Of a DNA stretch of 39,767 bases, positions 3,415 to 27,310 are shown piece after piece. Origin of the DNA: Candidatus Binatia bacterium (lineage in GTDB: Bacteria > Vulcanimicrobiota > Vulcanimicrobiia > Vulcanimicrobiales > Vulcanimicrobiaceae). How positions within the stretch are numbered: the first letter of the stretch is position 1; each line of letters opens with the position of its first letter. The translations under genes were made by a program, and so were the position numbers. The notes below the pieces were generated by a model, which saw nothing but the letters and a program-made list of their open reading frames with translations, made no database searches and was not told the DNA's origin. The stretch is taken from positions 1-39,767 of the forward strand of contig DATKMJ010000020.1 of the NCBI GenBank assembly GCA_035541935.1, given 5' to 3'.

Positions 3415-4019
3415 TGAGCGAAACCGAGCGGCAGCGCGAGGCCGGTCGCCGCGGCGATGTAGGGCGCGAATGCGATCGGCGATCCTCGCGCGCTGCTGAA
3501 GCGGTTGATGATTGCGGCCGCGGCGCAGGCAAGCGCGAGCGCGATGAGCGCGAGCGGAGCGCCGAGCGCGGCGCCCGCAACCGCTGCGAGCTTCGTGTCG
3601 CCCCAGCCCATGCCGTATCCTTTCGAGAAGAACGCGGCGCCGGCAAAGGGCGCGAAGACGACGACCGACGAGAGGACCGTCGCCCAGTCTCGTTGCGCGA
3701 ATGCGAAGAGCAAGAGCAATCCCAGCGGTATGAGCGTGAAGACGTCGGGGACGATTCCGCAGGTCGCGTCGCTGCACCACGATGCAACGAGGGCGAAGAC
3801 GACGATCGCCGCGATGCCGATCTGCAGCGGCAGCGCGCCCGTCGCGACGAGCACTCCTCCGATCAGCGTGCCGGCCGCGACGAGAGCGACGACCGGCGCA
3901 TTGCCGGGCGGCGGTCCGTCGTCCATCGGGGCGACGTCCGCGCAGACGAAGCGGCTAGCCTGCGACGCAATAAAGGCGAGGCAGCCGAAGAAGGCCGCGG
4001 CTGCGACGATCGCGATCAC
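3411..4019 (-). CDS. Prepilin peptidase, A24 family (second copy)
   Basis: A 202-residue integral membrane aspartic protease of the type IV leader peptidase family (A24), which removes the short leader of pilins and pseudopilins on the cytoplasmic side of the membrane. The two catalytic aspartates are visible: D84 in SDATCGIVPD and D141 in the GxGD motif (MGWGDTKL). No N-terminal methylase/zinc domain is present, as is usual for Tad-type enzymes. The start is GTG at 4019 and overlaps the tadC stop (GTGA). It is the second such enzyme in one operon; the other is at 8673-9185. The two differ in length and in sequence around the active sites, so they are not a recent duplication. Division of labour between Flp pilins and TadE/TadG-like substrates is possible but unproven. 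Confidence 0.9.
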   Translation of the reverse strand: MIAIVAAAAFFGCLAFIASQASRFVCADVAPMDDGPPPGNAPVVALVAAGTLIGGVLVATGALPLQIGIAAIVVFALVASWCSDATCGIVPDVFTLIPLGLLLLFAFAQRDWATVLSSVVVFAPFAGAAFFSKGYGMGWGDTKLAAVAGAALGAPLALIALALACAAAAIINRFSSARGSPIAFAPYIAAATGLALPLGFAH

Positions 4020-4876
4020 GGATGCTGCGTGAAATAGTTGACCGCGACGGTGCCGAAGATGATGGTGAAGATCGATGGGATCATGAAGAAGACCATCGGG
4101 AAGACCATTTTCACGGGCAGCTTACCCGCCATCTCTTCGACGAGCATCAGCCGCTGATGGCGCGCGTCCTCGGCTAACTCGGTCAACATCTTCGCGATGT
4201 TGGCGCCGAGTCGCTCGGCTTGCGTCATCACGCGCAACGCGTTGCGCAGCGCCGGCTGGTTCGTCCGGTCGCCCGCGCCCTTGAGCGCATCGGCGCGCGA
4301 GCGGCCCAGGCGGATCTCCGAGAGAGCCTCTTTGATCTCTTCCCCGAGCGGCCCGCGCGCCGCCTCGACGGAGTAGGCGAGCGCGGAGTTCAGCGCGAGC
4401 CCGGCTTGGACGGTTGAGGCCACCATATCCAAGAACTCCGGCAAGGACTTTTGGATCGCGGTGTGGCGCTGCTCGATCGCGCGATTTAGCAGATAGAACG
4501 GCGAGTATGCGCCGCAGAACGTGAATATCGCAAGGAGCGGGACGAGCCACTCGGGCGCGAGGTTCGCGAGCTTCCAGACGAGCAACGCGACGATCGGGCC
4601 GAGGGCGGCGCCGCCGACGACGCGCAGGGCGAACTGCGCGGGCGTCGTCGTATACCAACCCGCTTCGGCCAACTGTCGCACCAAGATGATGCGCCGCTCG
4701 CCCTTGAAGATGCGCTCCGCCAGCGGCGAACTGAGATCGCGTTGGAGCGGGACGTGGGCCTTGAGCTCCTCGATCTGCTCGGCGAGAACGCTCTTCGACG
4801 GCAGCAGCGAGACGGCGAAGAAGAAGACCGAGACGCCGCAGAAGACCGGGATGAGATATGTAAGAAATGATTCCAT
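4016..4876 (-). CDS. tadC: TadC, Tad pilus inner-membrane platform protein
   Basis: A 286-residue protein of the type II secretion F (T2SF/GspF) family. It has an N-terminal membrane segment, a central pair of segments around residues 84-130, a cytoplasmic helical T2SF domain at about 140-250 (with PEFLDMVASTVQAGL and MLTELAEDARHQR) and a C-terminal membrane segment. TadC pairs with TadB as the platform on which the TadA ATPase works to add or extract Flp pilin. The gene follows tadB with one base between stop and ATG and overlaps the next gene by four bases, so it is in the same transcript. Nothing in the sequence looks truncated. Confidence 0.92.
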   Translation of the reverse strand: MESFLTYLIPVFCGVSVFFFAVSLLPSKSVLAEQIEELKAHVPLQRDLSSPLAERIFKGERRIILVRQLAEAGWYTTTPAQFALRVVGGAALGPIVALLVWKLANLAPEWLVPLLAIFTFCGAYSPFYLLNRAIEQRHTAIQKSLPEFLDMVASTVQAGLALNSALAYSVEAARGPLGEEIKEALSEIRLGRSRADALKGAGDRTNQPALRNALRVMTQAERLGANIAKMLTELAEDARHQRLMLVEEMAGKLPVKMVFPMVFFMIPSIFTIIFGTVAVNYFTQHP

Positions 4877-4877
4877 C

Positions 4878-5741
4878 CTAGACGTCCACCTGTAGGATCT
4901 TCCGGACCCAGACGAAGCCGACCACCTCGAAGATCGCGATGATCAGCAGCACGATGTGACCGAGGCCGGTGAAGAAGAGCGCGTGCGACATGTCGGGTTG
5001 CGTGACCCAGATGAAGACGCCGAGGCCGACGGGGATGAGCATGAGCACCCAGGCGCTCAGACGTCCCTCGGCGGTTAGCGTGGCGATCTTCCGGTGCACC
5101 TGACGCCGCCCTTTGATCGTGTCGGCAAGCTGTTCGAGGATTCTCGCGAGGTCGCCGCCGGTCTCCGCTTGGACGCGGAAGACGCGCGCGACCATGAGCG
5201 ACTCGTTGCAGGGCATGCGCACGGCGAGCGTATCGAGGGCATCGAAGATGCTCGCACCGATATTCGCCTGTCCGATGACCCGCTGGAACTCGTAGCGCGC
5301 GGGGTCGGGCAGTTCCTCGACGACGAGGGCGAGGGCTTGGCGTAAGCCCAAGCCGACCCGAACGCTGCTCGCGATCAAGCGTAACGCGCTCTCGAGTTGC
5401 TCGATGAAGGCGTTGAGGCGCCGCGCGATCTTTATTTGGACGAACGTGTAGAAGCCGAAGACGCCGACCGCGGCAACGAGCGGCAGCAGGATGAGGGCCA
5501 TGACGAGCGGCGGATGGAGCAAGAGAACGAGCACGATCCAGACGATCGCGATCGCAGCCGAGAGCGAGAGCACGATCTCTTGCGAGCTCATCTGAATGCC
5601 GGCACGTTCGAGCTGGTCGCCGAGACTGTTGACTCGCGCGGTCGCCCGTTTGTTGACCGATCCCCAGAATGCGAAGAAGAAGAAGAACGCCGTTGCCGAT
5701 ATGCCGACGAAGATGGCGCCGAGAATTAATGTATTTACCAT
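4878..5741 (-). CDS. tadB: TadB, Tad pilus inner-membrane platform protein
   Basis: A 287-residue T2SF-family protein with an N-terminal membrane helix, a pair of helices near residues 60-105, the cytoplasmic T2SF domain at about 115-240 (FIEQLESALRLIASSVRVGL, VQAETGGDLARILEQLADTI) and C-terminal membrane helices near 230-285. It forms the platform complex with TadC. Its ATG lies inside the end of the upstream ATPase gene (7-base overlap), the usual tadA-tadB-tadC coupling. No unusual residues were noted. Confidence 0.92.
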   Translation of the reverse strand: MVNTLILGAIFVGISATAFFFFFAFWGSVNKRATARVNSLGDQLERAGIQMSSQEIVLSLSAAIAIVWIVLVLLLHPPLVMALILLPLVAAVGVFGFYTFVQIKIARRLNAFIEQLESALRLIASSVRVGLGLRQALALVVEELPDPARYEFQRVIGQANIGASIFDALDTLAVRMPCNESLMVARVFRVQAETGGDLARILEQLADTIKGRRQVHRKIATLTAEGRLSAWVLMLIPVGLGVFIWVTQPDMSHALFFTGLGHIVLLIIAIFEVVGFVWVRKILQVDV

Positions 5742-7816
5742 GCGCTTTGCAGCAGCGAGAGCTCGTTGAGCCCACGTGCGTCGTATTGAGTGCCGTACTC
5801 GGCGAACCGCTTGATGCAGACCGGCTGGACGCCGGTGTAGCAGAAGTCGCCGAGGACTTTGTTGTCTTTATCCACGCCGCGCTGCGCGAAACGGACGACC
5901 TCCTGCATCGTCACGATGTCGCCTTCCATGCCGACGACCTCGCTGACGCCGATCACTTTGCGCGTGCCGTCCCGTAAGCGGGCGGTGTGGACGACCAGGT
6001 CGAGCGCGCTCGCGAGTTGCTCGCGAATCGCTCGAACCGGAAGATCGAAGCCGGCCATCATCACCATCGTCTCGACGCGGGAGAGCGCGTCGCGCTGGCT
6101 GTTGGCATGGATCGTCGTCAGCGATCCGTCGTGGCCGGTATTCATGGCCTGGAGCATGTCGAGCGCTTCGGCGCCGCGGCACTCGCCGATGATGATTCGG
6201 TCGGGCCGCATGCGGAGCGCGTTGCGCAAGAGATCGCGGATGCGGATCTCGCCGGCTCCCTCGATGTTGGGAGGCCGCGCTTCGAGACGCACGACGTGCG
6301 ACTGGTTCATGAGGAGTTCCGCGGCGTCTTCGATGGTGACGATACGCTCGCGGTTGGGAAGAAACGACGAGAGAATGTTGAGGAACGTGGTCTTACCGGA
6401 GCCGGTGCCGCCGCTGACAAGGATGTTGAGCCGCGACTCGACGGCCGCCCGGAGAAAGTCTATGACCTGCGGCGGGGCCGCGCCGATCTTCACGAGATCG
6501 TCGGAGGTGAGGCGGCGCTGGCCGAAACGCCGGATCGTCAGCGTCGCGCCGTCGATCGAGACGGGCTCGATGATCGCGTTGACGCGGGAGCCGTCGGGGA
6601 GGCGCGCGTCCACCATCGGCGAGGCTTCGTCAATGCGCCGGCCGAGCGGCGTCAAGATGCGCTCGATCACGAGGCGGAGCTGCCGCTCGCCGCTGAAGCG
6701 CTTCGTCGTCGGCTCGATGACGCCGTGTTTCTCGACGTAGACGGTGTCGGGTCCGTTGACCATGATTTCGGTGACGTCCGGATCGTTGATCAAGTCTTCG
6801 AGCGGGCCGAGGCCGAGCGCTTCGTCGAGCACCTCTTGCCGCAGCCGGGCGAGCTCCTCGGCGGAGGCGACGAATTTGCGCTGCGCGACGAAGTCCGAGG
6901 TTATTGACTCGACGCGTGCCTTGAGCTCGGCGAGCTTCGCGGCGTCGGTCTGCGAGACGCTCGACGAGACGAGGTCGGCCTGGCGAAGCAGCGCTGCCTG
7001 AATCTCTTGTTTGAAGGCGTCCCGCTTGGCGTCTACTTCGCTGCGGTGGCCGCCGCCGCGCCGCTCCGGAACGAACGCCGGCGCGAGGCGGCCATCGGTG
7101 ATGACGGTGCGGCCGCTGCGCGAGTCGCCGCTCTCCGCCGAGGATGGCTGCAGCGTGTCGAGCGGCTCGGCCGGCGGGAGCGCATCGATGTAGCGTTCCA
7201 GCGCCGTAATCGCCTTAGCGTAAATTCGGCTCGCGGTCGTCGGGATCTCGGCGACGATCTTCGCGCCGAGCGCCTCTTCGATCTCGCTGCGCAGGACGAT
7301 GCCGGCCTCGGTGCGAGCGTTGGTGATAAGGTCGATTCGGTTGGGCGGAACGCCGAAGCGCCGCAGGTCGCCGACCATGGACTGCGCGCCGGCGACGCCC
7401 AAAAGCGTCGGCTCGAGCACGATGAAGAAGCGCTTCGCGCGCTCGACAAACGGACGCACCGTCGTAATGAAGGGCTGCGGCGTATCGACGAGCACCGCGT
7501 CGAAGCCTGTGAGGCCCGCCGCGAACTCTTCGACGTCCTGTCTGTCGAGCGTGTAAGCGCCGTCGTAGCGATCCACGAGCTCGGCGATGGTCACGCCGTC
7601 CGCGGTAACGCTGGCGATCGGGAGCGCCGCATGCGCCGCGTCGAGCGCGCGCACGCTCTCGAAGAGGAGCGCGACGCTTCGACTGGCGGTCAGGTCGGCG
7701 TCAATGACCGCTATTTTCCCTTTTTCGCGCATGGCGCGCGCCAGCTCTCGGCAGAGCGTCGTCGTTCCGACGCCGCCCTTTGAGCCGATGAAGAGCAGGA
7801 AGGGAGCTTCGGTCAT
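5735..7816 (-). CDS. TadZ/CpaE-type ParA ATPase fused to TadA/CpaF secretion ATPase
   Basis: One 693-residue open frame carries two proteins that are normally separate. Residues 1 to about 215 are a MinD/ParA-type ATPase with deviant Walker A SKGGVGTTT (12-20), the AVIDAD strand (36-41) and VLVDTP (108-113), as in TadZ/CpaE, which directs Tad machinery to its site in the cell. The receiver-like N-terminal domain common in CpaE is absent. A charged linker follows (about 216-330), then a complete TadA/CpaF hexameric ATPase: Walker A GGTGSGKTT (469-477), Asp box TIEDAAEL (494-501), Walker B RIIIGE (540-545) and His box GHDGSLTTIHAN (561-572). The linker contains no methionine, so an internal restart is unlikely. 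ATG at 7816 overlaps the cpaB stop (ATGA). Confidence 0.93.
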   Translation of the reverse strand: MTEAPFLLFIGSKGGVGTTTLCRELARAMREKGKIAVIDADLTASRSVALLFESVRALDAAHAALPIASVTADGVTIAELVDRYDGAYTLDRQDVEEFAAGLTGFDAVLVDTPQPFITTVRPFVERAKRFFIVLEPTLLGVAGAQSMVGDLRRFGVPPNRIDLITNARTEAGIVLRSEIEEALGAKIVAEIPTTASRIYAKAITALERYIDALPPAEPLDTLQPSSAESGDSRSGRTVITDGRLAPAFVPERRGGGHRSEVDAKRDAFKQEIQAALLRQADLVSSSVSQTDAAKLAELKARVESITSDFVAQRKFVASAEELARLRQEVLDEALGLGPLEDLINDPDVTEIMVNGPDTVYVEKHGVIEPTTKRFSGERQLRLVIERILTPLGRRIDEASPMVDARLPDGSRVNAIIEPVSIDGATLTIRRFGQRRLTSDDLVKIGAAPPQVIDFLRAAVESRLNILVSGGTGSGKTTFLNILSSFLPNRERIVTIEDAAELLMNQSHVVRLEARPPNIEGAGEIRIRDLLRNALRMRPDRIIIGECRGAEALDMLQAMNTGHDGSLTTIHANSQRDALSRVETMVMMAGFDLPVRAIREQLASALDLVVHTARLRDGTRKVIGVSEVVGMEGDIVTMQEVVRFAQRGVDKDNKVLGDFCYTGVQPVCIKRFAEYGTQYDARGLNELSLLQSAW

Positions 7817-8673
7817 CGCGCCGCGCCGGGATCCACGATCTGGTCGCCGATGATCAGTTGAACGGGGCCGCTTCCCACGGAGCCGCGGCCGGACGACGCC
7901 GTTATCGGAGGCGGCGGTCCCATCGCAAACGCGGGAGGCGTCATCGGAACGGGGAGCGACGGCGGGGTGCCGCTCGTGCCGCCCTCGAGGGTTAGGATCT
8001 CGGTCGGCTCCGAACGGATCGGCTCGCGCGGCGAGCGCAGCGCGAGACGGAGGTTTGCGTTGGAGTCGGCCCAGGCCAGCAGATCGGCTTGCTTCGGATT
8101 CACCTCGAGGGTGATCGTAGCAGAAGTCTGCTCGTCGGGCGACGGCGTCGCGGACGCGTTCTCGAGGCTCGTGCCGACGGCGAGGACGCGGATGCCGCGG
8201 AAGATCGTGACGGCCTTATCGGGCGGTCCGTTGCCCTTCTGCGGCGGGATCGCGATGACGTCGACGCGGTCGCCGGGCTGAATCAACCCGGAGACGCCTT
8301 TCACGCGGTCGATCGGGATGCTGACCGCGCGCATTCCCGGCTTCAAGCGAACGGGCAGCGCGGACGGCACGTTCAAGCCGATCTGCGATGCGGTCAGCTG
8401 CGAGCCGGCCGGAATGGTGATGAGGGCGAGCGATCCAACGGCTTGATTCGGATTCGAGAGCGCGTCGGGCTGCAGCGATTGCGCGGAGCGGGTCTCCGTG
8501 CGAATCATTGCCGGCGTGATATGCTCGCGGGCCGGAATGTCTTGGGTGGTGATGAGCACTTGTCGGGGCTCGTTTTCGGCGGGCTTGAGCGACGAGAGAT
8601 ACGTCAGCGTAAGCCAGCCGGTACCAACGGCTAAAACGATCGCGATCAAGAGCGTCGTACGGCGTATGTTCAT
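7813..8673 (-). CDS. cpaB: CpaB/RcpC, Tad pilus assembly periplasmic protein
   Basis: A 286-residue protein with an N-terminal membrane anchor (residues 6-27), an SAF domain at about 38-105 (VLITTQDIPAREHITPAMI) and an RcpC/CpaB domain after it (RAVSIPIDRVKGVSGLIQPG, then LEVNPKQADLLAWADSNANL). The C-terminal tail is rich in proline and glycine. CpaB is a periplasmic partner of the CpaC secretin. The ATG at 8673 overlaps the TAA of the prepilin peptidase (TAATG). The frame stays open for 80 codons upstream, but those lie inside the previous gene and have no family resemblance. Confidence 0.9.
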   Translation of the reverse strand: MNIRRTTLLIAIVLAVGTGWLTLTYLSSLKPAENEPRQVLITTQDIPAREHITPAMIRTETRSAQSLQPDALSNPNQAVGSLALITIPAGSQLTASQIGLNVPSALPVRLKPGMRAVSIPIDRVKGVSGLIQPGDRVDVIAIPPQKGNGPPDKAVTIFRGIRVLAVGTSLENASATPSPDEQTSATITLEVNPKQADLLAWADSNANLRLALRSPREPIRSEPTEILTLEGGTSGTPPSLPVPMTPPAFAMGPPPPITASSGRGSVGSGPVQLIIGDQIVDPGAAR

Positions 8674-9185
8674 TACAGGTTTATCCTCAAGAATGGAGCG
8701 ATGCTCTGCGAGAGAGCGACCAAAATCGCGCCGAATGCGAAGGCAACCGCGTATGGTAAGGTTTCGGCCTTGTCGGGAGCGGGGCCTGGCCCGCCTGCAA
8801 AAGCCATGAGAAAGACGCGAGAGACGCCCGCTCTCGCCTTGCCTCGCATCGCGAGGAAGACGAGCGCGAGAAGACCTCCGCCGATCGCGGTGTAGAGCAA
8901 GAACGGAACGCACAAGGGGTAGCTAAGCAGCCCTGAGGCCACAATGCCGAGCTTGATGTCGCCGCCGCCGATGCCGCCCCGCGAGTAAGCGAGGGTGCCG
9001 GCCACCAGGATGATGGCCATGACTGCGAGGCTCGTGCCCACGGATCGCCATCCTTCGAGTCCGTGAATGACGAGGGCCGCGAGCAAGAGGAGACCCGTCA
9101 GCCAGTTCGGGATCCGCCGGGTGCGTACGTCGCTATAGCTTGCTGCGAGGCAGCCGGCGAGCGTGATTCCTATCGTTAGTGACAT
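8673..9185 (-). CDS. cpaA: Prepilin peptidase CpaA/TadV, A24 family
   Basis: A 170-residue integral membrane protease with the catalytic aspartates D19 (SDVRTRRIPN) and D76 (GIGGGDIKL), the layout of small Tad prepilin peptidases (TadV/CpaA). It should process the Flp pilin encoded just upstream and the TadE-like pseudopilins of the plus-strand operons. It sits between the Flp gene and cpaB. A 155-base spacer with a nested inverted repeat separates it from the Flp gene, so its expression may be set apart from that of the pilin. No strong ribosome binding site is seen before its ATG. Confidence 0.92.
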   Translation of the reverse strand: MSLTIGITLAGCLAASYSDVRTRRIPNWLTGLLLLAALVIHGLEGWRSVGTSLAVMAIILVAGTLAYSRGGIGGGDIKLGIVASGLLSYPLCVPFLLYTAIGGGLLALVFLAMRGKARAGVSRVFLMAFAGGPGPAPDKAETLPYAVAFAFGAILVALSQSIAPFLRINL

Positions 9186-9340: not shown

Positions 9341-9502
9341 TTAGACCGATCCGGCGACGCTGCTGAACACGGTGCTCAGGTTCTTTCCGAGCGTCTGAAC
9401 GGCGACCAGAGCGATCATGGCGATAAGGGCGACGAGCAGGCCGTACTCGACCATCGTGGCGCCTTCGTCATCGCGAATCATGGTGATGAGGTTGGTGAGC
9501 AT
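9341..9502 (-). CDS. flp: Flp-type pilin, copy 1
   Basis: A 53-residue prepilin. A short basic leader ends in DDEG, and processing would occur after G14. The mature chain starts ATMVEYGLL, with the obligatory glutamate at +5 followed by tyrosine, then a hydrophobic stretch (VALIAMIALVAVQTLG) and a short tail KNLSTVFSSVAGSV. This is the major-subunit type of Tad pili (Flp family). A good ribosome binding site, AAGGAGA, lies a few bases before the ATG. It is the first gene of the minus-strand tad operon. By my count it is identical to copy 2 at 41 of 53 positions. Confidence 0.93.
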   Translation of the reverse strand: MLTNLITMIRDDEGATMVEYGLLVALIAMIALVAVQTLGKNLSTVFSSVAGSV

Positions 9503-10579: not shown

Positions 10580-12001
10580 ATGTTTTCTATAACTCGCCGT
10601 ATCGTCGCGTCCGCCGTTATCTTTATAATGGCGGCACTCGCCGCTCCGGTCTGCGCCGATCAAGTCTCCCTGATCTCTATTCAGTCGGGGCACTCGATTC
10701 TGCTCAAGGCCGAGGGCCTCACCCGCGTAGCCGTTGGCGATGGACGAATCGCCGGCGTCGTTCCGATTGGGACGTCGCAGGTCGTCGTCAACGCCAAGGC
10801 GCCCGGACACACCACCGTCTTCGTGTGGGCCGGGGGCAAGCGCGTTACCTATGAAGTCACCGTAACCGAGCAGCAGCTCGACGACCTCGCCCAGATGCTC
10901 CGCAGCGCGATCGGCGCTCCGGGCGTCCAGATCGTGACCTTCGACCATTCGATCGTCATACGAGGAAGCGTCACGGACGGAGCCCAGCTCCAGCAGATCA
11001 CGGATATCATGAGCCGCTTCGACCCGATCGCCAAATCGCAGGGCGCGGTTCTCGTCAATGCGGTGACGATCTCCCAGAATCTCGGCATGTTGCAGCGCGC
11101 CATCGCGAATATCCCCGGCGCGACCGACATCCGCGTCGACCCCGACGGTAAGGGGAACGTCATCGTCAGCGGCAACGCGACCGACGCCGTAACCGCCCAA
11201 GCGATCCTCGAGCGGGCGCGCGGCCTGGCAGGTCCGTATCTCTCGGCAACCGGGCAACTCATCGACCGTCTGAACTCGCTGACCAACAGCCAGATCGACA
11301 TCAAGGTCTACGTGCTCGAGGTTGACAAGACGGCCCAATCCGACCTCGGCATCTCGCTCAGCGGCGCCGAGCAGGTCAACGGACAGTCGACGCCCACGCT
11401 CGTGCCGCCGATCTTCCCGTTCCTCGAGTCGCCGTCGCTGCCGGGCTCGGGCCTCGGCTTCACGATCCAGCCCTTCTATAGAACGATCACGCTCGCTCCG
11501 CAGCTCCACTTGCTGATGAGCGAAGGGCACGCAAAGGAACTGTCGAGCCCGGATCTCGTGACGAGCCCCGGCGCGAAGGCGTCGTTCCTCGTCGGCGGCG
11601 AGATACCGGTCGTCACTTCGACCGGCCTCGGCGCGGTCAACGTGCAGTACCAGCCATACGGCGTCCAGTTGAACGTAACGCCGGACATCCTCGGCAACGG
11701 CTCGATCCATGCGGTCATCGCCCCGGAGATCTCCGACCTCGACTACGCCAACGCCGTCGTCGTCTCGGGCTTCACGATCCCCGCCCTCAAAGTCAGCCAG
11801 CTCTCTACCGACGTCATCACGCGGCCCGGCGAGAGCATCCTGATGGGTGGTCTCGTCCGCCGGCTCGAGCAGCGCACGGTATCGAAGATCCCGATCCTCT
11901 CGGCGATCCCGATTCTCGGCAAGCTCTTCACGTCGGTCGCCTATCAGAACGCCCAGTCCGACGTGGTCTTCGTAATGACGCCCGAAGTCATCAACCGGTG
12001 A
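10580..12001 (+). CDS. cpaC: CpaC/RcpA outer-membrane secretin of the Tad pilus
   Basis: A 473-residue protein. A signal peptide (1 to about 26, ending PVCA) is followed by the pilus-secretin N-terminal domain (about 28-97; LLKAEGLTRVAVGD, APGHTTVFVWAGGKRVTYEV) and a BON-like region (about 100-225, IVIRGSVTDGAQLQQI). The C-terminal secretin domain runs from about 235 (DIKVYVLEVDKTAQSDLGI, SPDLVTSPGAKASFLVGGEIPV, VQYQPYGVQLNVTP, PGESILMGGLV). It forms the ring through which the Flp pilus leaves the outer membrane. GGAGGG lies just before the ATG. It is the first gene of a five-gene plus-strand operon; its TGA overlaps the next GTG. Confidence 0.93.
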   Translation: MFSITRRIVASAVIFIMAALAAPVCADQVSLISIQSGHSILLKAEGLTRVAVGDGRIAGVVPIGTSQVVVNAKAPGHTTVFVWAGGKRVTYEVTVTEQQLDDLAQMLRSAIGAPGVQIVTFDHSIVIRGSVTDGAQLQQITDIMSRFDPIAKSQGAVLVNAVTISQNLGMLQRAIANIPGATDIRVDPDGKGNVIVSGNATDAVTAQAILERARGLAGPYLSATGQLIDRLNSLTNSQIDIKVYVLEVDKTAQSDLGISLSGAEQVNGQSTPTLVPPIFPFLESPSLPGSGLGFTIQPFYRTITLAPQLHLLMSEGHAKELSSPDLVTSPGAKASFLVGGEIPVVTSTGLGAVNVQYQPYGVQLNVTPDILGNGSIHAVIAPEISDLDYANAVVVSGFTIPALKVSQLSTDVITRPGESILMGGLVRRLEQRTVSKIPILSAIPILGKLFTSVAYQNAQSDVVFVMTPEVINR

Positions 12002-12453
12002 CCCGGACGGCCGGCCGACTCCATTACGAGCGCGGCGCCAGCATCCCCGAGACGGCAATCGTCATCGGGGTCTTGCTGGCGCTGATTCTCGGGATCATGG
12101 ACTTCGGCCGTGCCATGTATACGTATGCCTTCATCGCCCAGATCACGCGCGAAGGCGCGCGTTGGGCGACGGTGCGGGGATCGCAGTGCGCGCTGCTCGA
12201 CAACTGCAACGCAACGTCGGCGCAGATCCAGACCTACGTGCGCGGCCTCTCCGAGGGTCTGACTACTCCCAGCAACATCAACGTCACCGCGACTTGGCCG
12301 TCGACGAGCTGCCCCGCGGGCAGTTCCGGGAACGCGCCGGGTTGCGCCGTCTCCGTCAATACCACGTATCAGTATAAGTTCACGCTCATTCCGTTCTTGG
12401 CGAGCCTTCCACTCAACATCTCAAGCACTTCACAAATGGTGATCTCGCAATGA
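11998..12453 (+). CDS. TadE-like pseudopilin (type A, first set)
   Basis: A 151-residue protein with a class III prepilin-like N-terminus: ERG followed by ASIPETAI, with glutamate at +5 after the presumed cleavage glycine, then a hydrophobic helix and DFGRAMYTYAFIAQITREGAR, the classic TadE motif. The extracytoplasmic part has four cysteines (CALLDNC, CPAG, GCAVSV) that could form disulphides. It starts at GTG 11998, overlapping the secretin stop. It is clearly paralogous to the protein at 18099-18554, sharing LSEGLTTPS and the DFGRAMYTY block. It is probably a minor pilin or initiation-complex component processed by a prepilin peptidase in this locus. Confidence 0.88.
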   Translation: MTRTAGRLHYERGASIPETAIVIGVLLALILGIMDFGRAMYTYAFIAQITREGARWATVRGSQCALLDNCNATSAQIQTYVRGLSEGLTTPSNINVTATWPSTSCPAGSSGNAPGCAVSVNTTYQYKFTLIPFLASLPLNISSTSQMVISQ

Positions 12454-13646
12454 AGAACAAGAATCAACGAGGACAGGCCCTCCCCCTCATCGCGATATCC
12501 CTCGGAGCCCTCATGGGCTTCGCGGGCATCTCCGTGGACGTCGGGTACCTCGAATACCGCCAGCAGGCGCAGCAATCGGCGACCGATGCCGCCGCCCTCG
12601 GGGGCGCCGAACAGCTCGCTCACGGCGCCTGCACGAACACCGGCAACGCAAAGGCGGCCGCGCTCTCAGACGCGAGCGACAACAGTTTCCCGAACGGCTC
12701 CCAGATCACGGTCACGCCGAATACGCCGCCGTCGAGCGGGCCCTTTGCGGGGAACGCCTGCGCGGTCGACGTTCAGATCGTCACGCAGAACGTGCCGACC
12801 TATTTTTCGCGCATGTTCGGCTTTCCGGCGGGCATGACCGAGTCTACCCACGCGGTCGCCGCAGTGACGACGAACGGCGCGGCCCCCTGCATCTACCTGC
12901 TCAGCCAGACCGTCCAAACCAACTTTAACGGGGCTAACGTCAACTCGCCGCAGTGCTCGATCGCAATCAACGATACGGCGAACTTCAACGGCGTGACGAT
13001 CGGCGCCCCGATGATCGGTTACGCCGGCGCCGCCCCGAACAAGAACGGCGCGAACTTCACGATGGCGACGCCCTCGCCGATGCTGCCGGTCCAAGACCCG
13101 TGCCCGGAGTTCTCAGGCTGCAATTACCTCGCGACCAACCCTCCGTCGACGACGAATTGCACGAGTTTCAACGGCAACGGTTACTCCGGCACGCTCGCCG
13201 CCGGCTGCTACAGTTACCTCAATCTCAACGGCGCCAACGTGACGCTGCAATCGGGCGGAACCTACGTCCTCAGCGGCACCTCGAACTTCAACGGCGCCCA
13301 CGTCACGGGAACCGGCGTCACGCTCTACGTCCCCGCGACGGGAACGCCGCCGAACTTCAACGGCGCGAGCGTCAGCCTCTCGCCGCCGACGAGCGGAAAT
13401 CAGGTCGGCACGCTCTATTATCAGGTGCCGTCGAACACGCAGAGCCCGAACTTCAACGGCACCTCGAACTGGTATAGCGGCTTGATCTACTGCCCCGGCG
13501 CCACTGCCGTGAACTTCAACGGCTCGGGCGGCGGCTACGTCGTGCTCGTCTTCGGCGCGTGGAACGTCAACGGCGCCGGCGTCTACGATTTTGCAACACC
13601 CTCTCCCGGGCAAGCACTTAGCCCAAAGGCGGTAATCGTTCAATGA
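12450..13646 (+). CDS. TadG-like protein with NFNG repeats (first set)
   Basis: A 398-residue protein. The N-terminus (QRGQALPLIAI..., residues 6-58) is the TadG/TadE-like membrane anchor, including VDVGYLEYRQQAQQSATDAAA. The usual +5 glutamate is leucine, so it may not be cleaved like a pilin. From about 155 onward, the exported domain carries nine or ten copies of an FNG-type motif: NFNGA near 158, NFNGV near 178, FNGN near 240, LNGA near 259, NFNGA near 279 and 302, NFNGT near 334, NFNGS near 355 and NVNGA near 371. Spacings of about 20-30 residues suggest a beta-solenoid with stacked asparagines. The paralogue at 16511-17689 keeps the overall shape but has lost most FNG copies. A pilus-tip or adhesion role is inferred. 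Confidence 0.87.
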   Translation: MKNKNQRGQALPLIAISLGALMGFAGISVDVGYLEYRQQAQQSATDAAALGGAEQLAHGACTNTGNAKAAALSDASDNSFPNGSQITVTPNTPPSSGPFAGNACAVDVQIVTQNVPTYFSRMFGFPAGMTESTHAVAAVTTNGAAPCIYLLSQTVQTNFNGANVNSPQCSIAINDTANFNGVTIGAPMIGYAGAAPNKNGANFTMATPSPMLPVQDPCPEFSGCNYLATNPPSTTNCTSFNGNGYSGTLAAGCYSYLNLNGANVTLQSGGTYVLSGTSNFNGAHVTGTGVTLYVPATGTPPNFNGASVSLSPPTSGNQVGTLYYQVPSNTQSPNFNGTSNWYSGLIYCPGATAVNFNGSGGGYVVLVFGAWNVNGAGVYDFATPSPGQALSPKAVIVQ

Positions 13647-14086
13647 AGCAGCTCCAAGAGAACGAGAGCGGAACGAGCGTCGTGGAACTGGCCGTCGTTC
13701 TGCCCATGCTTGCGTTTCTACTGATCGGCCTGGTCGAGATCGGCCGCTACACCTACTTCGGCATCGTCGCCGCGCACGCGGCGCGCGCGGGCGTGCAGTA
13801 CGGCGGCCAGACGCTCGTTACGGCCCTCGATACCACGGGGATGACGACGGCGGCCTCGAAGGACGCGCAGAGTCTCTCGAACTGGACCGTGACCCCGTCG
13901 CACGTCTGCACCTCCTCGGGCAGCGTCGTGAGTTGCCCGAACGGCTCGGGAGCCTCGATTCCAGGCGTCGTCTACTACGTTCAGGTCCAAGTGAAAGGCA
14001 CGTTTGCGACCCTCATGAACTACCCGGGGATCCCGAACAACATCCCCGTTACCGCTACCGCGATGATGCGGATAGGCAATCAATAG
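13643..14086 (+). CDS. TadE-like pseudopilin (type B, first set)
   Basis: A 147-residue protein. The leader ends in NESG, followed by TSVVELAVVLPML with glutamate at +5, then the hydrophobic helix and IGRYTYFGIVAAHAARAGVQYG. The exported part contains DTTGMT, also present in the paralogue at 17689-18102. Two cysteines (CTSS and SCPN) are close together. ATG at 13643 overlaps the upstream TGA (ATGA). It belongs to the TadE/TadF minor-pilin group and is probably processed by the A24 peptidases of this locus. Confidence 0.88.
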   Translation: MKQLQENESGTSVVELAVVLPMLAFLLIGLVEIGRYTYFGIVAAHAARAGVQYGGQTLVTALDTTGMTTAASKDAQSLSNWTVTPSHVCTSSGSVVSCPNGSGASIPGVVYYVQVQVKGTFATLMNYPGIPNNIPVTATAMMRIGNQ

Positions 14087-14087
14087 G

Positions 14088-15470
14088 GTGAACGCCCTCG
14101 CGCTGCGGCCCGCGCGCATTCCGGCGCGCCGAAACGGATCCGCCACGGCGTTGCAGACGCCGGTCGGCGGCGTTTCGGCGATCTTCGCGCTGGAAGGCTT
14201 CGACCGGCGCCGCGGCGTCGCGACGTACTCGCTACGCGTGATGAACTACTCGCGTTCGCAGCTCGTCTGCCGCACCTGGATCATCTCGCGCGCCGGGGAC
14301 GCCGCGCCCGCCCATCCGATGCTCCTCGAGGTCGCGCCGCGATCGACGGCTGCGACGCAAATTCCGGTCTGGCCGGGCGATTTCGCCTCGTTCGACCGCG
14401 CGATCGCGGAAGTCGCAGGCGACGGCGTGCACTGCCTCGTCGAAGCGCCGGCTCCCCGCATCTCCAAGCTGCACCGCGCGTACACGTTTGCGGCGGCGAG
14501 CCTCGTCGCCGGAATCCTCGCGATCGTCACGGCCGGCGCGCTGCGTTCGGCAGTGCCGCGGATCGCCGCCTTCGCCGTGCCGCCCGAGGCGCTCGCCGGC
14601 ACGACCGTGCGCGCCGAGTACGGCGCGGAGGGCGCCGGCAACCTCTCGTACTACGTCCAGGCACCCGACGGAAGCCGCATCGCGGGCGGCACGCTCTCGC
14701 AGATGTCGGGCTCGATTCCGATCGCGATTCCGGCTTCGGATCAGCCCGGCGCGTACACGCTGCAGATGACGATGGCCGGACCGCTCGGCACGACGAGCGA
14801 GACCCGCGTCCTCAACACGCTCGTCATGCGCCCCCACTCGAAGGCGCAGATCGCGGCGATCTCCGTGAACCCGGTCGTTGCGCGGCCGGGCGAGACGGTC
14901 GAAGTCGCGTACTCTGCCGCCGGCGACGAGGGCTACGTTCGCCTCATGGGTACCGATGGAACGATCTGGGGGCAGCAGCCGTTCTCGCGCACCGGGCAGA
15001 CGCACTTCGTCGTTCCGCCGTTCGCCAATCCCGGCGAACTGCGCGTGTTGCTCCACGTTACGAAAGGTAACTCGACGGCGCAATCCATGGCAGGCATCGT
15101 CGTGGCGGCGGCGCATGCGCCCGCGGCCGCTCCGGCCGCCGCAGCGCCGGCGATTCTGAGCGACGACGATCCGGCATCGGCTGCGACGATGAGCAGCGAC
15201 GCAAACGGCACGTTCGAGCTCGCAGCAAAGACGGTTCGCAGCGGCGGTTCGATAGCCGTGAAGATTATCTCGCCGCGAAACGGCATGCGGATCGCGCTCG
15301 TGGATCTCCAATCGCACGAGGTCCAAGGCGTAGACGTCGGAGCGAGTGACGACGTCGTGACGCTGCACGCGCCGACCGTGCAAGCTGCGACGCGCTACGT
15401 CGTGCAGGCAAGTTTCACCGACGGCTTCGGCCAGGAGAGCGTCGTAGCGCCGGTGACGGTCGTCCCTTAG
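14088..15470 (+). CDS. Membrane-anchored protein with Ig-like extracytoplasmic repeats, unknown
   Basis: A 460-residue protein starting with GTG one base after the TadE stop. Residues 1 to about 130 form an N-terminal beta-rich domain (GFDRRRGVATYSLRVMNYS) with two or more cysteines. A membrane helix lies at about 133-153. The C-terminal half has at least three Ig-like beta sandwiches (about 160-250, 255-342, 365-460), broken by an Ala/Pro linker at 340-355. The domains contain repeated G-x-Y-x-L and ARPGETVEV patterns. It matches no named Tad component that I recognise. Its place as the last gene before a terminator suggests it works with the pilus, perhaps as scaffold or periplasmic brace. 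That is inference. Confidence 0.75.
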   Translation: MNALALRPARIPARRNGSATALQTPVGGVSAIFALEGFDRRRGVATYSLRVMNYSRSQLVCRTWIISRAGDAAPAHPMLLEVAPRSTAATQIPVWPGDFASFDRAIAEVAGDGVHCLVEAPAPRISKLHRAYTFAAASLVAGILAIVTAGALRSAVPRIAAFAVPPEALAGTTVRAEYGAEGAGNLSYYVQAPDGSRIAGGTLSQMSGSIPIAIPASDQPGAYTLQMTMAGPLGTTSETRVLNTLVMRPHSKAQIAAISVNPVVARPGETVEVAYSAAGDEGYVRLMGTDGTIWGQQPFSRTGQTHFVVPPFANPGELRVLLHVTKGNSTAQSMAGIVVAAAHAPAAAPAAAAPAILSDDDPASAATMSSDANGTFELAAKTVRSGGSIAVKIISPRNGMRIALVDLQSHEVQGVDVGASDDVVTLHAPTVQAATRYVVQASFTDGFGQESVVAPVTVVP

Positions 15471-15542: not shown

Positions 15543-15704
15543 CTAGACCGAGGTGGCGACGGTGCTGAAGAGCGAGCTCAGGTTCTTACCGAGCGTCGTA
15601 ACGGCAATGAGGGCCACCATGGCGATCAGGGCGACGAGCAGGCCGTACTCCACCATCGTGGCGCCTTCCTCATCGCGGATCATTTTCTTGAGAGTCTTAA
15701 GCAT
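15543..15704 (-). CDS. flp: Flp-type pilin, copy 2
   Basis: A 53-residue prepilin, leader MLKTLKKMIRDEEG, mature start ATMVEYGLL with E at +5 and Y at +6, then hydrophobic VALIAMVALIAVTTLG and tail KNLSSLFSTVATSV. A strong AAGGAGA precedes the ATG at 15704. It is a single-gene unit on the minus strand, ending at the bidirectional terminator. It closely resembles copy 1 and differs more from copy 3. It could be an alternative major subunit expressed under different conditions. Confidence 0.93.
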   Translation of the reverse strand: MLKTLKKMIRDEEGATMVEYGLLVALIAMVALIAVTTLGKNLSSLFSTVATSV

Positions 15705-16120: not shown

Positions 16121-16282
16121 ATGATTACTACTCTGAAAGCCCTACTGCGCGATGAAAGCGGCGCGGAGCTGGTCGAGTACGGGCTCCTGGCGAGCCTGAT
16201 CGCCATCGTGGCGATGGTCGCCGTCCAGGCCCTCGGAAAGAACGTCAGCACGCTCTACGCCAACGCAGCCACCTCGATTTAG
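16121..16282 (+). CDS. flp: Flp-type pilin, copy 3
   Basis: A 53-residue prepilin: leader MITTLKALLRDESG, then AELVEYGLL with E at +5, hydrophobic ASLIAIVAMVAVQALG and tail KNVSTLYANAATSI. AAGGAG is well placed before the ATG. This is the most diverged of the three Flp pilins, and it leads the second TadG/TadE set. It may be the partner of those minor pilins, whereas copy 1 belongs with the assembly operon. Confidence 0.93.
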   Translation: MITTLKALLRDESGAELVEYGLLASLIAIVAMVAVQALGKNVSTLYANAATSI

Positions 16283-16510: not shown

Positions 16511-17689
16511 ATGTTGAGACGCCACGAAAAGGGGCAGATCATACCCCTGGTCGCGATTTCTCTCACCGTACTAATGGGATTCGGCGGCCTTGCCGTCGAC
16601 CACGGCTACTGGGAATACACGCTTCGCCAGCAGCAAAACGCGGCCGACAGCGCCGCGATCGGCGGCGCCCAAGCGCTGGCCAACGCGGGATGCCCCGCCT
16701 CGAGCGCGGCTCAGACGGCGGCGCTCGCGGATGCGGCGAGCAACGGCTACGGCAGCACCGGCATCACGGTCAGCAACCCGCCGACGACCGGCGCATACTC
16801 CGGCAACAACTGCGCGGTCATGGTTTCGATCGCCAATCAGAAGAAGCCGTCGTTCTTTAGCCGGGTGCTCGGCTACAACCAGATGTATGAGTCGACCACG
16901 GCGACGGCCCAGCTCGTCGCCAACAACCCGACCTGCATGTACATGTTGAGCACGACGGGTACGACGCAGTTCAATGGCGCGAACATCACGGCGACCGGCT
17001 GCGGAATCTCGGTGAACGGCACGTTCACCTGCGGTTCCAACACGATCACCGCGAGCTCGATCGGCTACGCCGGCTCGGCGCCGAGCTGCGGCAGCGCGAA
17101 GTTCTCGGCAGCGACGCCTGCACCGCAGGTCGCCCAGACGAATCCGTGCCCGGAGATCGCCGGGTGCGCTTACCTCGCATCCAACCCCCCGCCCGTGACG
17201 AACTGCAAGACCCTCAACGCGAACATGAACGACTCGATCAGCCCGGGATGCTACAACGCGCTGACGGTCGGCACGTGCGGAACGGTTACGCTCCAGCCGG
17301 GTCTCTATGTCCTCAACGGGACCAGCGACTTCAGCAACACGAACTTCGTCGGCAACGGCGTGACGTTCTACGTCACGAACAGCGGAACGCCGCCGGACTT
17401 CAGCCAGTCGGGCACGGCGACGTTGACGCCGCCGACGACCGGAAACTACAAGAACGTCCTGTACTATCAGGTCCCGACGAACACCAAAGCACCGAACTTC
17501 AGCGGCCCGATGAACTTCAGCGGCCTCGTCTACGCTCCGTCCGCTACGGGCGTGGCCTTCGACGGCGCCAAGGGCACCTATAGCGTCGTGGTCTTCGGAT
17601 CGGCGAAGCTGAACTCGACGACGGCCTACACGTTCGCGTCGCCGCCGCCGAGCGCAACCATCGTCAAGTCCGTGGTGCTCGGACAATAA
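16511..17689 (+). CDS. TadG-like protein (second set)
   Basis: A 392-residue protein starting at ATG 16511, chosen because GAGGAGGG (16496-16503) lies seven bases upstream; a GTG at 16481 in the same frame has no such site. The N-terminus (EKGQIIPLVAISLTVLMGFGGLAVDHGYWEY) matches the first-set TadG, again without the +5 glutamate. The exported region aligns with the first copy: CYNALTVG, GLYVLNGTSDF, VTFYVTNSGTPPDF and YYQVPTNTKAPNFSG. FNG motifs, however, are mostly replaced by FSG or FSQ. Several cysteines are conserved. It is a paralogue of 12450-13646. Its TAA overlaps the next ATG. Confidence 0.87.
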   Translation: MLRRHEKGQIIPLVAISLTVLMGFGGLAVDHGYWEYTLRQQQNAADSAAIGGAQALANAGCPASSAAQTAALADAASNGYGSTGITVSNPPTTGAYSGNNCAVMVSIANQKKPSFFSRVLGYNQMYESTTATAQLVANNPTCMYMLSTTGTTQFNGANITATGCGISVNGTFTCGSNTITASSIGYAGSAPSCGSAKFSAATPAPQVAQTNPCPEIAGCAYLASNPPPVTNCKTLNANMNDSISPGCYNALTVGTCGTVTLQPGLYVLNGTSDFSNTNFVGNGVTFYVTNSGTPPDFSQSGTATLTPPTTGNYKNVLYYQVPTNTKAPNFSGPMNFSGLVYAPSATGVAFDGAKGTYSVVVFGSAKLNSTTAYTFASPPPSATIVKSVVLGQ

Positions 17690-18102
17690 TGCGCGCGCTG
17701 AAAGGCTCCGATTCGGGAGCCGCGCTCGTCGAGTTCGCAGTCGTGGCGCCGATGCTGGCTCTGCTGCTCATCGGACTCATCGACTTCGGGCGCTACACGT
17801 TCGACGCCATGGTGGCGTCGAACGCGGCGCGGGCCGGCGCTCTGTACGGAGCGCAGAACCTGATCACCGCGAAGGATACGACCGGCATGACCAACGCGGC
17901 CCTCGCGGATGCCCAGAACCTACCGAACCTGACGATCAGCAACGCAAGCTACTACTGCCAGAGCCCGTGTTCGTCTACGGCTCCGGTCTACTACGTCACG
18001 GTAACAGCCTCGGGCACGTTCACGCCGATCATTCAATACCCCGGCCTTGCGTCGTCGATCAAGGTAAACGAAACTTCAACGCAACGGGTACAAAACCAAT
18101 GA
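17689..18102 (+). CDS. TadE-like pseudopilin (type B, second set)
   Basis: A 137-residue protein. The leader ends in SDSG; the mature start AALVEFAVVAPML has glutamate at +5. It is followed by DFGRYTFDAMVASNAARAGALYG. It shares the DTTGMT block and layout of the protein at 13643-14086, so it is a type B paralogue. Two cysteines sit close together (CQSPC). It overlaps its neighbours by one base upstream (TAATG) and four bases downstream (ATGA). Confidence 0.87.
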   Translation: MRALKGSDSGAALVEFAVVAPMLALLLIGLIDFGRYTFDAMVASNAARAGALYGAQNLITAKDTTGMTNAALADAQNLPNLTISNASYYCQSPCSSTAPVYYVTVTASGTFTPIIQYPGLASSIKVNETSTQRVQNQ

Positions 18103-18554
18103 AGCGGCACGCACAACGCGGCAGCAGTCTTCCCGAAATGGCCATCGCGGCCGGATGCCTGCTGCTCCTCATGTTCGGCATCGTCGACTTCGGTCGAGCG
18201 ATGTATACCTACGGGTTCGTCGCGCAGCTAGCGCGTCAGGGGGCTCGTTACTGGATCGTTCGGGGCACGACGTCCTGCACGAACAGCAACAGCCAGCTGC
18301 CGAACTGCAACGCTTCGGCCGCCCAAGTTACGTCCTACGTCCAGAGCCTCTCCGAGGGATTGACGACCCCCAGCAGCATCACGGTTACCCCCACGAAAGT
18401 CAGTTGTCCGAACTCCGGCGGCGCGCTCCCGACGGCCGCGCCCGGATGCACGATCTCGGTCACGGTCAGCTATCCATTCAAGTTCATGACAGGCATCCTA
18501 CCAAGCGCCGCGATCACGATGTCGAGCACGTCGACAATGGTGGTGGCACAATAA
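18099..18554 (+). CDS. TadE-like pseudopilin (type A, second set)
   Basis: A 151-residue protein starting at ATG 18099, which overlaps the upstream TGA. The N-terminus is QRG then SSLPEMAIAAG with E at +5; DFGRAMYTYGFVAQLARQGARY follows. It is the same length as the protein at 11998-12453 and shares its motifs, including LSEGLTTPS, so it is a type A paralogue. Here it is last in the set, where the first set has its type A member at the front. A strong terminator follows. Confidence 0.87.
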   Translation: MKRHAQRGSSLPEMAIAAGCLLLLMFGIVDFGRAMYTYGFVAQLARQGARYWIVRGTTSCTNSNSQLPNCNASAAQVTSYVQSLSEGLTTPSSITVTPTKVSCPNSGGALPTAAPGCTISVTVSYPFKFMTGILPSAAITMSSTSTMVVAQ

Positions 18555-25541: not shown

Positions 25542-26369
25542 ATGGCGCTCAACCTCGAAGCCGCGGATGCCTACTGCCGGATGCTCACGCAACGGCACTA
25601 CGAGAACTTCAGCGTCGCGTCGCGCTTCGTTGACGCGGAGACGCGGCTCGACCTCGCGCGCATCTACGCGTACTGCCGCACGACCGACGACTTGGGCGAC
25701 GAGAGCCCCGGCGGTCAGGCCGAGGCGCGGCTGGAGCGATGGCGCACCGAGGTCGAGTGGCTCTTCGCGGGCGTCACGCCCGTCCATCCGGTGCTCTTCG
25801 CGCTCGCGCAGACCGTCGAACGGCACGCGATGGCGGCGCAGCCGTTTCTCGACCTGATTGCGGCAAACGTGCAGGACCAGCGGGTGACGCGGTATCGCAC
25901 GTGGGACGAGTTGATTGGCTACTGCCGGCTCTCCGCCGCCCCGGTCGGGCGCATGGTGCTGCGCGTCTTCGGCGTCGACGACGCCGAGTCGGAACGGCTC
26001 TCCGACGACGTCTGCATCGGCCTGCAGTTGGCCAACCACGCGCAGGACGTCAGCCGGGACGCCGAAATCGGGCGCCGCTACCTTGTGGATAGCGACGTCG
26101 ACGCCAGGGGAATCGCGGGCGCCGCGCAAGCCATGGTGGAGCGGGCTCGCGGGCTCCTGGCGTCGGGCGAAGCGCTCGAGCGCCGGGTCCCGAAGGCGCT
26201 CCGGCTCCAGCTCTCACTCTACCGGATGGGAGGCTTGGCCATTTGCGACGCGATTCAGGCCACCGGCTATGAGACGGAACACCAACGGCCAAGCGTTTCG
26301 CCGTCCACGAAGGTATCGCTCGTGGTCCGCGCCGCATTAGAGAGTTTTTTGCGAGGCCGTCCTGCTTAG
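25542..26369 (+). CDS. hpnC: Hydroxysqualene synthase HpnC
   Basis: A 275-residue squalene/phytoene-synthase family protein. HYENFSVASR (19-28) is typical of HpnC. The first aspartate motif is TTDDLGDE (47-54) and the second is NHAQDVSRD (165-173), which bind Mg-diphosphate. In the three-step bacterial route, HpnC turns presqualene diphosphate into hydroxysqualene. It starts immediately after the idi stop and is directly followed by hpnD. No missing key residue was noted. Confidence 0.93.
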   Translation: MALNLEAADAYCRMLTQRHYENFSVASRFVDAETRLDLARIYAYCRTTDDLGDESPGGQAEARLERWRTEVEWLFAGVTPVHPVLFALAQTVERHAMAAQPFLDLIAANVQDQRVTRYRTWDELIGYCRLSAAPVGRMVLRVFGVDDAESERLSDDVCIGLQLANHAQDVSRDAEIGRRYLVDSDVDARGIAGAAQAMVERARGLLASGEALERRVPKALRLQLSLYRMGGLAICDAIQATGYETEHQRPSVSPSTKVSLVVRAALESFLRGRPA

Positions 26370-27260
26370 ATGATCAACCTCCAGCGCGCGTTGCGCATTT
26401 CGATTCCCGCGTCGGAGCGCCAACGGGCCGAGCGGTTCAACCGCGACATGGCAAAGCGCGAAGCCGGCAACTTCTACTGGGGCTTCATCTCGCTCGGCTA
26501 TCACGAGCGGATGGCGATCTACGCGCTCTATAACCTCGCCCGCCAGGTAGACGACGAGGCCGATCGGGTCGGCGTCGAAAACCTCCCGGCGCGGCTGCAG
26601 GTGCACCGGGAGCGGATCTCACGCTGCGCGCGCGGCGACGTCGGCGACGATCCGATCCTGCAGGTGCTCTCCGAGGCGATGGAGCGCTACTCGATTCCGG
26701 AGTCCGAGCTGCAGATGCTCGTGGACGGCGTCGAGATGGACTTCACCCGCTCGCGCTATGAGAACTTCGAAGAGCTGCGCAGCTACTGCAATCTCGTCGC
26801 ATCGGTCGTCGGCCGGATGTGCGTGCGAATCTTTGGCTTCAGCGATCCGATCGCACTCGAGCGCGCCGACGATCTCGGCCTCGCCCTCCAACTGACGAAT
26901 ATCTTGCGCGACGTGCGCGAGGACGCCGTGGACATGAAGCGGATCTATCTGCCGCAGGACGAGTTGCGGCGCTACGGCATTCCCGAGTCCGCGCTGGCCG
27001 CCGGCGAGATCCATCCGGGCTGGAACGAACTGATCGCGCAGAGCGTCGAGCGCGCCCGCATCTACTTTGCATCGGGCTACGAGGTGTTGCAGTACATCCC
27101 GCGCCGGCCCGCCGCGTGCGTGGGAACGATGGCCGGTATCTACGAGGAGCTGCTGAAGAAGATCGAGCGCGATCCCGCGCTTCCGCTGCGAGCGCGCGCC
27201 GCGCTCTCGAAGACTGAAAAGTTGCGCGTCGTCGTGCGTTCGTGGCTCTCGAGCGCGTAG
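26370..27260 (+). CDS. hpnD: Presqualene diphosphate synthase HpnD
   Basis: A 296-residue squalene/phytoene-synthase family protein. It has NFYWGFISL (34-42), DDEAD (61-65), the DFTRSRY region (124-130) and NILRDVREDA (177-186) with the second Asp pair. HpnD joins two farnesyl diphosphates into presqualene diphosphate. Its ATG directly follows the hpnC stop. It is probably co-transcribed with the following fusion gene; a GTG of that gene overlaps its end, although I place the next start 50 bases downstream. Confidence 0.93.
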   Translation: MINLQRALRISIPASERQRAERFNRDMAKREAGNFYWGFISLGYHERMAIYALYNLARQVDDEADRVGVENLPARLQVHRERISRCARGDVGDDPILQVLSEAMERYSIPESELQMLVDGVEMDFTRSRYENFEELRSYCNLVASVVGRMCVRIFGFSDPIALERADDLGLALQLTNILRDVREDAVDMKRIYLPQDELRRYGIPESALAAGEIHPGWNELIAQSVERARIYFASGYEVLQYIPRRPAACVGTMAGIYEELLKKIERDPALPLRARAALSKTEKLRVVVRSWLSSA

Positions 27261-27310
27261 CCGTCGGTCGCCTGTCGCCCGTCCTGGACTCCGGCGACAC
27301 TCGGCCGTCC

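Follow-up and report, generated by a model that had tools for sequence, protein, structure and literature searches.

Bacteria use Tad pili to hold on to surfaces and to prey. The window analysed here, a stretch of 39,767 nucleotides from an assembly of Candidatus Binatia bacterium, encodes a TadG-like minor pilin, P0001 (ORF 12450-13646, + strand; 398 amino acids), whose C-terminal part returns to the same short FNG-type motif again and again; this raises the question of where in the protein these motifs lie, how they came to be alike, and what a row of them might do at the end of a pilus. Computation established the repeat, the surrounding Tad locus, the predicted fold with its corner register, and the uniformity of the motif within proteins.

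P0001 is encoded in a full Tad locus as one of two TadE/TadG sets, and the locus also holds three Flp genes. In the first set, the TadG-like gene is flanked by TadE-like minor pilins at 11998-12453 (+; PF07811, E 2e-10; with the cleavage-type motif G|ASIPE) and 13643-14086 (+; PF07811, E 1.1e-8; G|TSVVE); the second set comprises a second TadG-like minor pilin, the paralogue P0002 (16511-17689, +), and TadE-like minor pilins at 17689-18102 (+; PF07811, E 1.4e-12) and 18099-18554 (+; PF07811, E 1.9e-10), the start of the latter being placed at the ATG that precedes its TadE domain. A secretin (RcpA/CpaC-like; 10580-12001, +; PF00263, E 1.1e-37) precedes the first set, and the reverse strand carries a Flp pilin (9341-9502; PF04964, E 2.5e-15), a prepilin peptidase (8673-9185; PF01478, E 2.9e-15), RcpC/CpaB (7813-8913; PF16976, E 4e-30), a TadZ-TadA fusion (5735-7816; PF00437, E 3e-65; PF01656, E 1.1e-8), and T2SSF proteins of the TadB (4878-5741) and TadC (4016-4876) types. 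The fusion is a single 693-residue ORF that unites a ParA/MinD-type domain (TadZ-like) and a T2SSE ATPase (TadA-like). Between the two tip sets lie a 460-residue protein without a family assignment (14088-15470, +), with one apparent membrane span and several beta-type domains as judged by eye, and two Flp-like pilins recognised by their motifs (15543-15704, -, GATMVEYGLL; 16121-16282, +, GAELVEYGLL).

The N-terminus of P0001 matched PF13400 (Tad) with 33.3 bits, above the gathering score of 22.3 (E 6.2e-8); Tad_C (PF09977) reached 17.1 bits, under its gathering score of 22.1, and DUF7305 (PF23981; gathering score 27) reached 14.8 bits on P0001 and 22.9 bits on P0002, and at E<=1 it matched 13 of the 21 members of the alignment, the best of them at 3e-10. 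A search of the open-licence literature for DUF7305 returned nothing, an absence that counts for little. A PDB sequence search gave an antibody match only (E 0.51) for P0001 and none for its profile; no relatives of P0001 were found in viral contigs, and no Rfam matches within the window. The eight cysteines of P0001 (residues 61, 104, 147, 169, 218, 224, 237 and 253) are in each case invariant or conserved to 90% or more in a 23-row alignment (A1), which suggests disulphides in the tip protein.

A reading of the sequence alone had counted nine or ten FNG-type motifs, and the repeat is real: ten xNG sites were located, with N at 160, 180, 199, 241, 260, 281, 304, 336, 357 and 374, plus an additional overlapping xNG with N at 243, all within a ladder region of residues 158-377 (12921-13580, +). 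Residues 150-398 contain seven exact FNG, where 50,000 composition-preserving shuffles gave 0.18 on average and never more than 3; for NG the count is 11, with a shuffle average of 4.1 and a highest value of 13. The spacing, put at 20-30 residues in that reading, has to be lowered to 17-23 for most steps and keeps two longer gaps of 42 and 32 residues (in order 20, 19, 42, 19, 21, 23, 32, 21 and 17).

An AlphaFold2 model of P0001, built with 21 sequences (mean pLDDT 84.8, pTM 0.69), starts with a helix (residues 10-58), continues with a small alpha-beta part (64-139) and has a beta-solenoid at residues 144-385 (12879-13604, +); the protein is likely a pilin, with a Tad N-terminal helix and a small pilin-like beta domain, that bears a C-terminal solenoid. 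The best-scored stretch is 221-340, with pLDDT mostly above 90. A short helix (222-229) follows the first three motif sites, and a final strand (394-396) after the solenoid could reflect an arrangement like that of ComZ, whose solenoid is set between the two closing strands of the pilin fold. In the structure comparison with VIA-align 2, DUF3494-type ice-binding proteins occupied 23 of the best 24 rows, the other being ComZ, and the next row dropped to Z 7.9; FfIBP (7ehk) aligned with 181 of 216 residues at an rmsd of 3.2 A (Z 12.4), and ComZ with 308 residues at 8.0 A (Z 11.8; residues 23-398 onto 4-518). A second AlphaFold2 model was made for L035, from an Acidobacteriaceae record and about 30% identical to P0001 in the alignment (pLDDT 86.7); it aligned with FfIBP (4nu2) over 188 of 216 residues at 3.2 A (Z 14.7) and with ComZ over 223 residues at 4.0 A (Z 12.9), and the first family other than DUF3494 or ComZ came at Z 11.2. 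By these Z scores, both predicted models have the DUF3494 fold, and the closest structures for both are triangular right-handed beta-solenoids, in agreement with the right-handed solenoid that had been proposed. Foldseek with the P0001 model returned nothing at E<=0.001 (best 0.15), nor did a search of BFVD, in which a DUF3494-named protein came first (E 0.029).

PF11999 was not listed at E<=1 for any of the 21 members, and sequence homology to DUF3494 was rejected by hhalign: a comparison of 63 C-terminal TadG rows with 24 DUF3494 domains had a probability of 6.8 (E 0.0053; controls 0.12 for the reversed profile and 0.22-0.65 for five shuffles). The link between TadG and DUF3494 is therefore one of fold only. 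No sequence similarity between P0001 and ComZ was detectable. A DUF3494 gene is absent from the genome of the window and present in 16 of 60 genomes searched.

In the model, each of the ten motifs of P0001 stands at the point where a strand gives way to a tight turn, about one per coil: counted from the motif N, position -2 falls in a strand at ten of ten sites, +1 at one, and +4 at nine. In the L035 model, whose motif is TGS, the residue at -1 from the T is in a strand at 12 of 12 sites, those at +2 and +3 at none, and that at +6 at 11. From this strand-turn-strand register, the motif marks one corner of the coil in both models, and the placement at strand ends supports the idea of a solenoid with a ladder; the scattered loops that would have spoken against it did not appear, every FNG standing at a strand end before a short turn. 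From register and fold we infer that the side chains of the motif row stack in the modelled protein, with offsets -2 and 0 facing outward; offset -1, which is hydrophobic in P0001, probably points inward.

A search of 41 genomes with P0001 had matches in 17, counting its own genome, and ten of the 27 proteins kept carry seven to nine FNG. A related genome (G005) has two copies with nine and eight FNG, and L066, from another genus, has eight. FNG is the property of a clade, and other clades carry motifs of their own: TGS in L035 (12 times), NGS in L052 (11 times), NS in L031/L054 (13 times), [TS]GG corners in L075, QxNG in L071 (Q at -2 in nine of ten sites), S at offset 0 in L026 (eight of ten sites), and [ND]S-type corners in L132, L147 and L149. 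Two neighbouring TadG-like genes of L037 (7980-9254 and 9381-10619) carry NGN and SGN, each uniformly, and many TadG-like rows have no clear repeat. A ladder specific to asparagine and to a single copy, as had been foreseen, finds no support: the residue is N, S, T or Q from protein to protein, and uniform within many. In L145 and L146, from genomes of the family of L035, hydrophobic corner runs of the GLLS and AVLS types were seen where relatives have NG or TG. L032 and L033, from records named Eremiobacterota or Eremiobacteria, match genomes placed in the window's family at 100% identity over about 4.2 kb, so that the window most likely belongs to that phylum; L031 (record named Deltaproteobacteria palsa_1115) is 85-89% identical over 4.1 kb to a genome placed in this family, and the organism name of its record is probably wrong, to judge from this match.

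P0002 is 45% identical to P0001 and has the same domain with a mixed corner motif. Its ten aligned sites read QFNGA, TCGSN, SCGSA, TLNAN, TVGTC, DFSNT, DFSQS, NFSGP, AFDGA and KLNST, so that FSG or FSQ, said earlier to prevail there, has to give way to FS- in three of ten sites and a mixture otherwise. Restriction of the repeat to one copy is true of this genome only, given the ten FNG-bearing proteins above and the two copies in G005.

Uniformity was measured by comparing residues between the rungs of one protein, at ten sites defined on P0001 and aligned to it; the null was a column permutation in which the residues of each site were dealt anew among proteins, which does not fully remove relatedness, and rows with fewer than six aligned sites were dropped. 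In the 41 of 70 rows that are under 50% identity, the five offsets from -2 to +2 scored z values of 13.7, 7.6, 18.8, 15.5 and 10.0, and the remaining 15 that were tried lay between -2.4 and 4.0. With an earlier set of 35 rows the five values were 16.3, 7.9, 16.7, 12.7 and 11.8, and the 29 rows under 43% identity to P0001, without the FNG clade, still gave 10.6, 3.0, 13.5, 11.1 and 10.5. All rungs contributed except that at 241, the one at 304 weakly. In an alignment-free test, a repeated tripeptide (p<0.01) was found in 19 of 70 TadG-like domains, the other 51 failing, and in none of 24 DUF3494 domains and none of 14 Beta_helix proteins of related genomes. On a quick tree of the 70 rows, made without the motif columns, the majority residue changed at least five times at offset 0 (38 labelled rows) and at least four times at -2 (27 labelled rows). 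As to the rows themselves, L022 (the same protein as L006) and L025 were dropped, L018 gave no row, and only rows with a full C-terminal domain were tested from L031-L052, L031, L032 and L033 being represented by L054, L053 and L057; 49 later ORF matches comprised ten already included, 28 partial and 11 new ones. Partial rows (the second ORFs of L056 and L075, the first of L036) were dropped, the long divergent rows L138, L162 and L166 were left out of the tripeptide, tree, permutation and rung-distance tests, and a bactofilin control was set aside for having one match only.

The reading that we favour, with some confidence, is that a uniform row of side chains displayed at the pilus tip stabilises the solenoid corner and probably also meets a repetitive surface. 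P0001, as a TadG/KilN-type minor pilin, would be displayed with its two TadE-type partners at the end of the Tad pilus, with the N-terminal helix and small beta domain anchoring it in the tip and the C-terminal 240 residues folding as a triangular right-handed beta-solenoid of the ice-binding-protein-1 (DUF3494)/ComZ type. NFNGA would form the same corner of each coil, with the outward N(-2) and N(0) and the G-A turn lining one edge, one step per coil. Two reasons are proposed why the row would be uniform within a protein and swapped as a set from lineage to lineage: neighbours in a stack fit best if they are alike, and the row as a whole probably contacts a repetitive surface. This surface would be crystal-like, a polysaccharide or cell wall, and tip copies that offer differing rows would amount to interchangeable tips.

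Nearest to this stands a purely structural account, in which like residues stack at a tight corner for neighbour fit and the ladder has no ligand role; we hold it to be quite possible, if short of probable. It draws on the position of the uniform residues at strand end and turn, and on a weak fall of agreement with rung distance in the DUF3494 coil order (1-6-5-4-3-2, with coil 1 beside the last coil; PMC5673226): Spearman -0.36 at p 0.014, and -0.30 at p 0.07 without rung 241, p-values that are only nominal because the pairs are not independent. This fall fits neighbour stacking and is only a hint; in sequence order there is none (Spearman 0.16), and far rungs agree about as well as near ones in most pairs. 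Against the account also speak the lower uniformity at -1 (z 3.0 once the FNG clade is left out) than at -2 (10.6) and 0 (13.5) and the want of repeated tripeptides in the DUF3494 and Beta_helix proteins.

An origin of the repeats by DNA copying, through gene conversion between rungs or their recent duplication, is improbable. The P0001 gene does hold eight 25-nt copies of the motif region, seven of them 68-84% identical to the reference copy, and its FNG codons agree more than expected (0.71/1.00/0.71 against 0.52/0.74/0.55), as the motif codons of L010 and L052 are likewise somewhat more alike than background, so that copying of DNA may have had a share. However, no tandem repeat was found in the gene, coil lengths differ, similarity is confined to about -2 to +2, and synonymous codons vary about like background in L035, L066, L024, L037 and L071. 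Across 12 proteins, the codons of the motif are for the most part as varied as those used for these amino acids in the rest of the gene (in L035, identity of 0.47/0.30/0.29 against 0.47/0.32/0.32 expected), which makes selection on the protein the likelier cause. Composition is a very improbable source, for although N (31) and G (33) are abundant among the 249 residues 150-398, as expected if Asn/Gly-rich, low-complexity exported domains repeat motifs by chance, it is contradicted by the shuffles with their three FNG at most, by a signal that is nearly gone a few residues off the motif in the same proteins, and by motifs at one kind of place in two models.

The favoured tip display rests on analogy with known Tad systems. 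In Myxococcus, TadE/F/G-type pilins are described as exchangeable tips with the variable end on a large TadG-type subunit, and a Flp gene beside one tip set as an adapter working with that set (PMC12075869); in Caulobacter, CpaL, whose orthologue is named TadG, is predicted at the Tad tip and has a vWA domain (PMC12607857). From these accounts we infer the tip location, and display of P0001 at the tip with TadE/TadF-type partners is probable. The KilN/TadG tips of the Myxococcus Kil pilus resemble P0001 in the large TadG-type pilin with a variable C-terminal domain, the two smaller TadE/TadF-type pilins alongside, several sets per genome, and richness in disulphides (PMC12075869); the variable domain of P0001 differs in being a DUF3494/ComZ-like solenoid with a uniform corner motif, and for the extra domain of KilN4 the paper describes no structural homologue among PDB entries.

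ComZ of Thermus thermophilus (6qvi) likewise combines a pilin-like module with a large beta-solenoid, to which its authors found FfIBP closest, and is argued to sit at a pilus tip (PMC6561018). It differs in belonging to a competence pilus, in DNA binding, and in a longer and irregular solenoid; a uniform motif such as that of P0001 is absent from what the consulted parts of that paper report. DUF3494 proteins (FfIBP 4nu2, TisAFP, IBPv) share the triangular right-handed solenoid with a helix part-way; this helix is long and lies along one face in that family, whereas in P0001 it is much shorter, the solenoid is part of a pilin, and PF11999 does not match. The ice-binding sites of DUF3494 proteins are described as having no repetitive sequence, unlike the corner row of P0001, and region IV of MpAFP of Marinomonas primoryensis as repeating a Thr-Gly-Asn/Asp motif (PMC7966756); MpAFP is an ice adhesin (PMC3492233). 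A uniform row on a tip solenoid resembles such repeated ice-binding motifs of other antifreeze proteins: P0001 and MpAFP share a uniform short motif in successive repeats, and MpAFP, a surface protein, adheres to a repetitive surface, whereas the MpAFP motif belongs to part of a 1.5-MDa adhesin and not to a pilin. The solenoid of MpAFP is not known to be related to that of P0001.

By this analogy, ice is a possible ligand of the tip solenoid; the motif residues (N, S, T and Q, with G) would equally suit polysaccharide contact or pure corner stabilisation. The open-licence literature, in which absence is weak evidence, held nothing joining DUF3494, ice-binding and a pilus, no report of such ladders in pilins among the first 10 of 149 matches listed, and, for TadG with beta-helix, one paper, listed as a biofilm-matrix survey. 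A wider reading, which we consider rather unlikely, is that of a Tad-tip family in which an ice-binding-like solenoid scaffolds a comb of one residue type, exchanged whole between lineages and neighbouring copies, each tip recognising another periodic surface such as ice, crystalline polysaccharide, mineral or cell wall; if so, the motif of each protein would be a readable code for its surface. Should the row be the contact surface, tips could be sorted by likely target from their sequence alone, and nature would have done the experiment wherever orthologues differ by a swapped row. The coordinated replacement of about ten dispersed sites, with codons mostly varied, is an unusual case of protein-wide constraint.

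Elsewhere in the window, a hopanoid cluster (25542-31602, +) was seen, with two squalene/phytoene-synthase-like genes, an 1118-residue ORF in which a complete squalene-hopene cyclase is fused to a domain of the flavin amine oxidase type and which we take to be an HpnE-HpnF-like fusion, and next a radical SAM DUF3463 protein.
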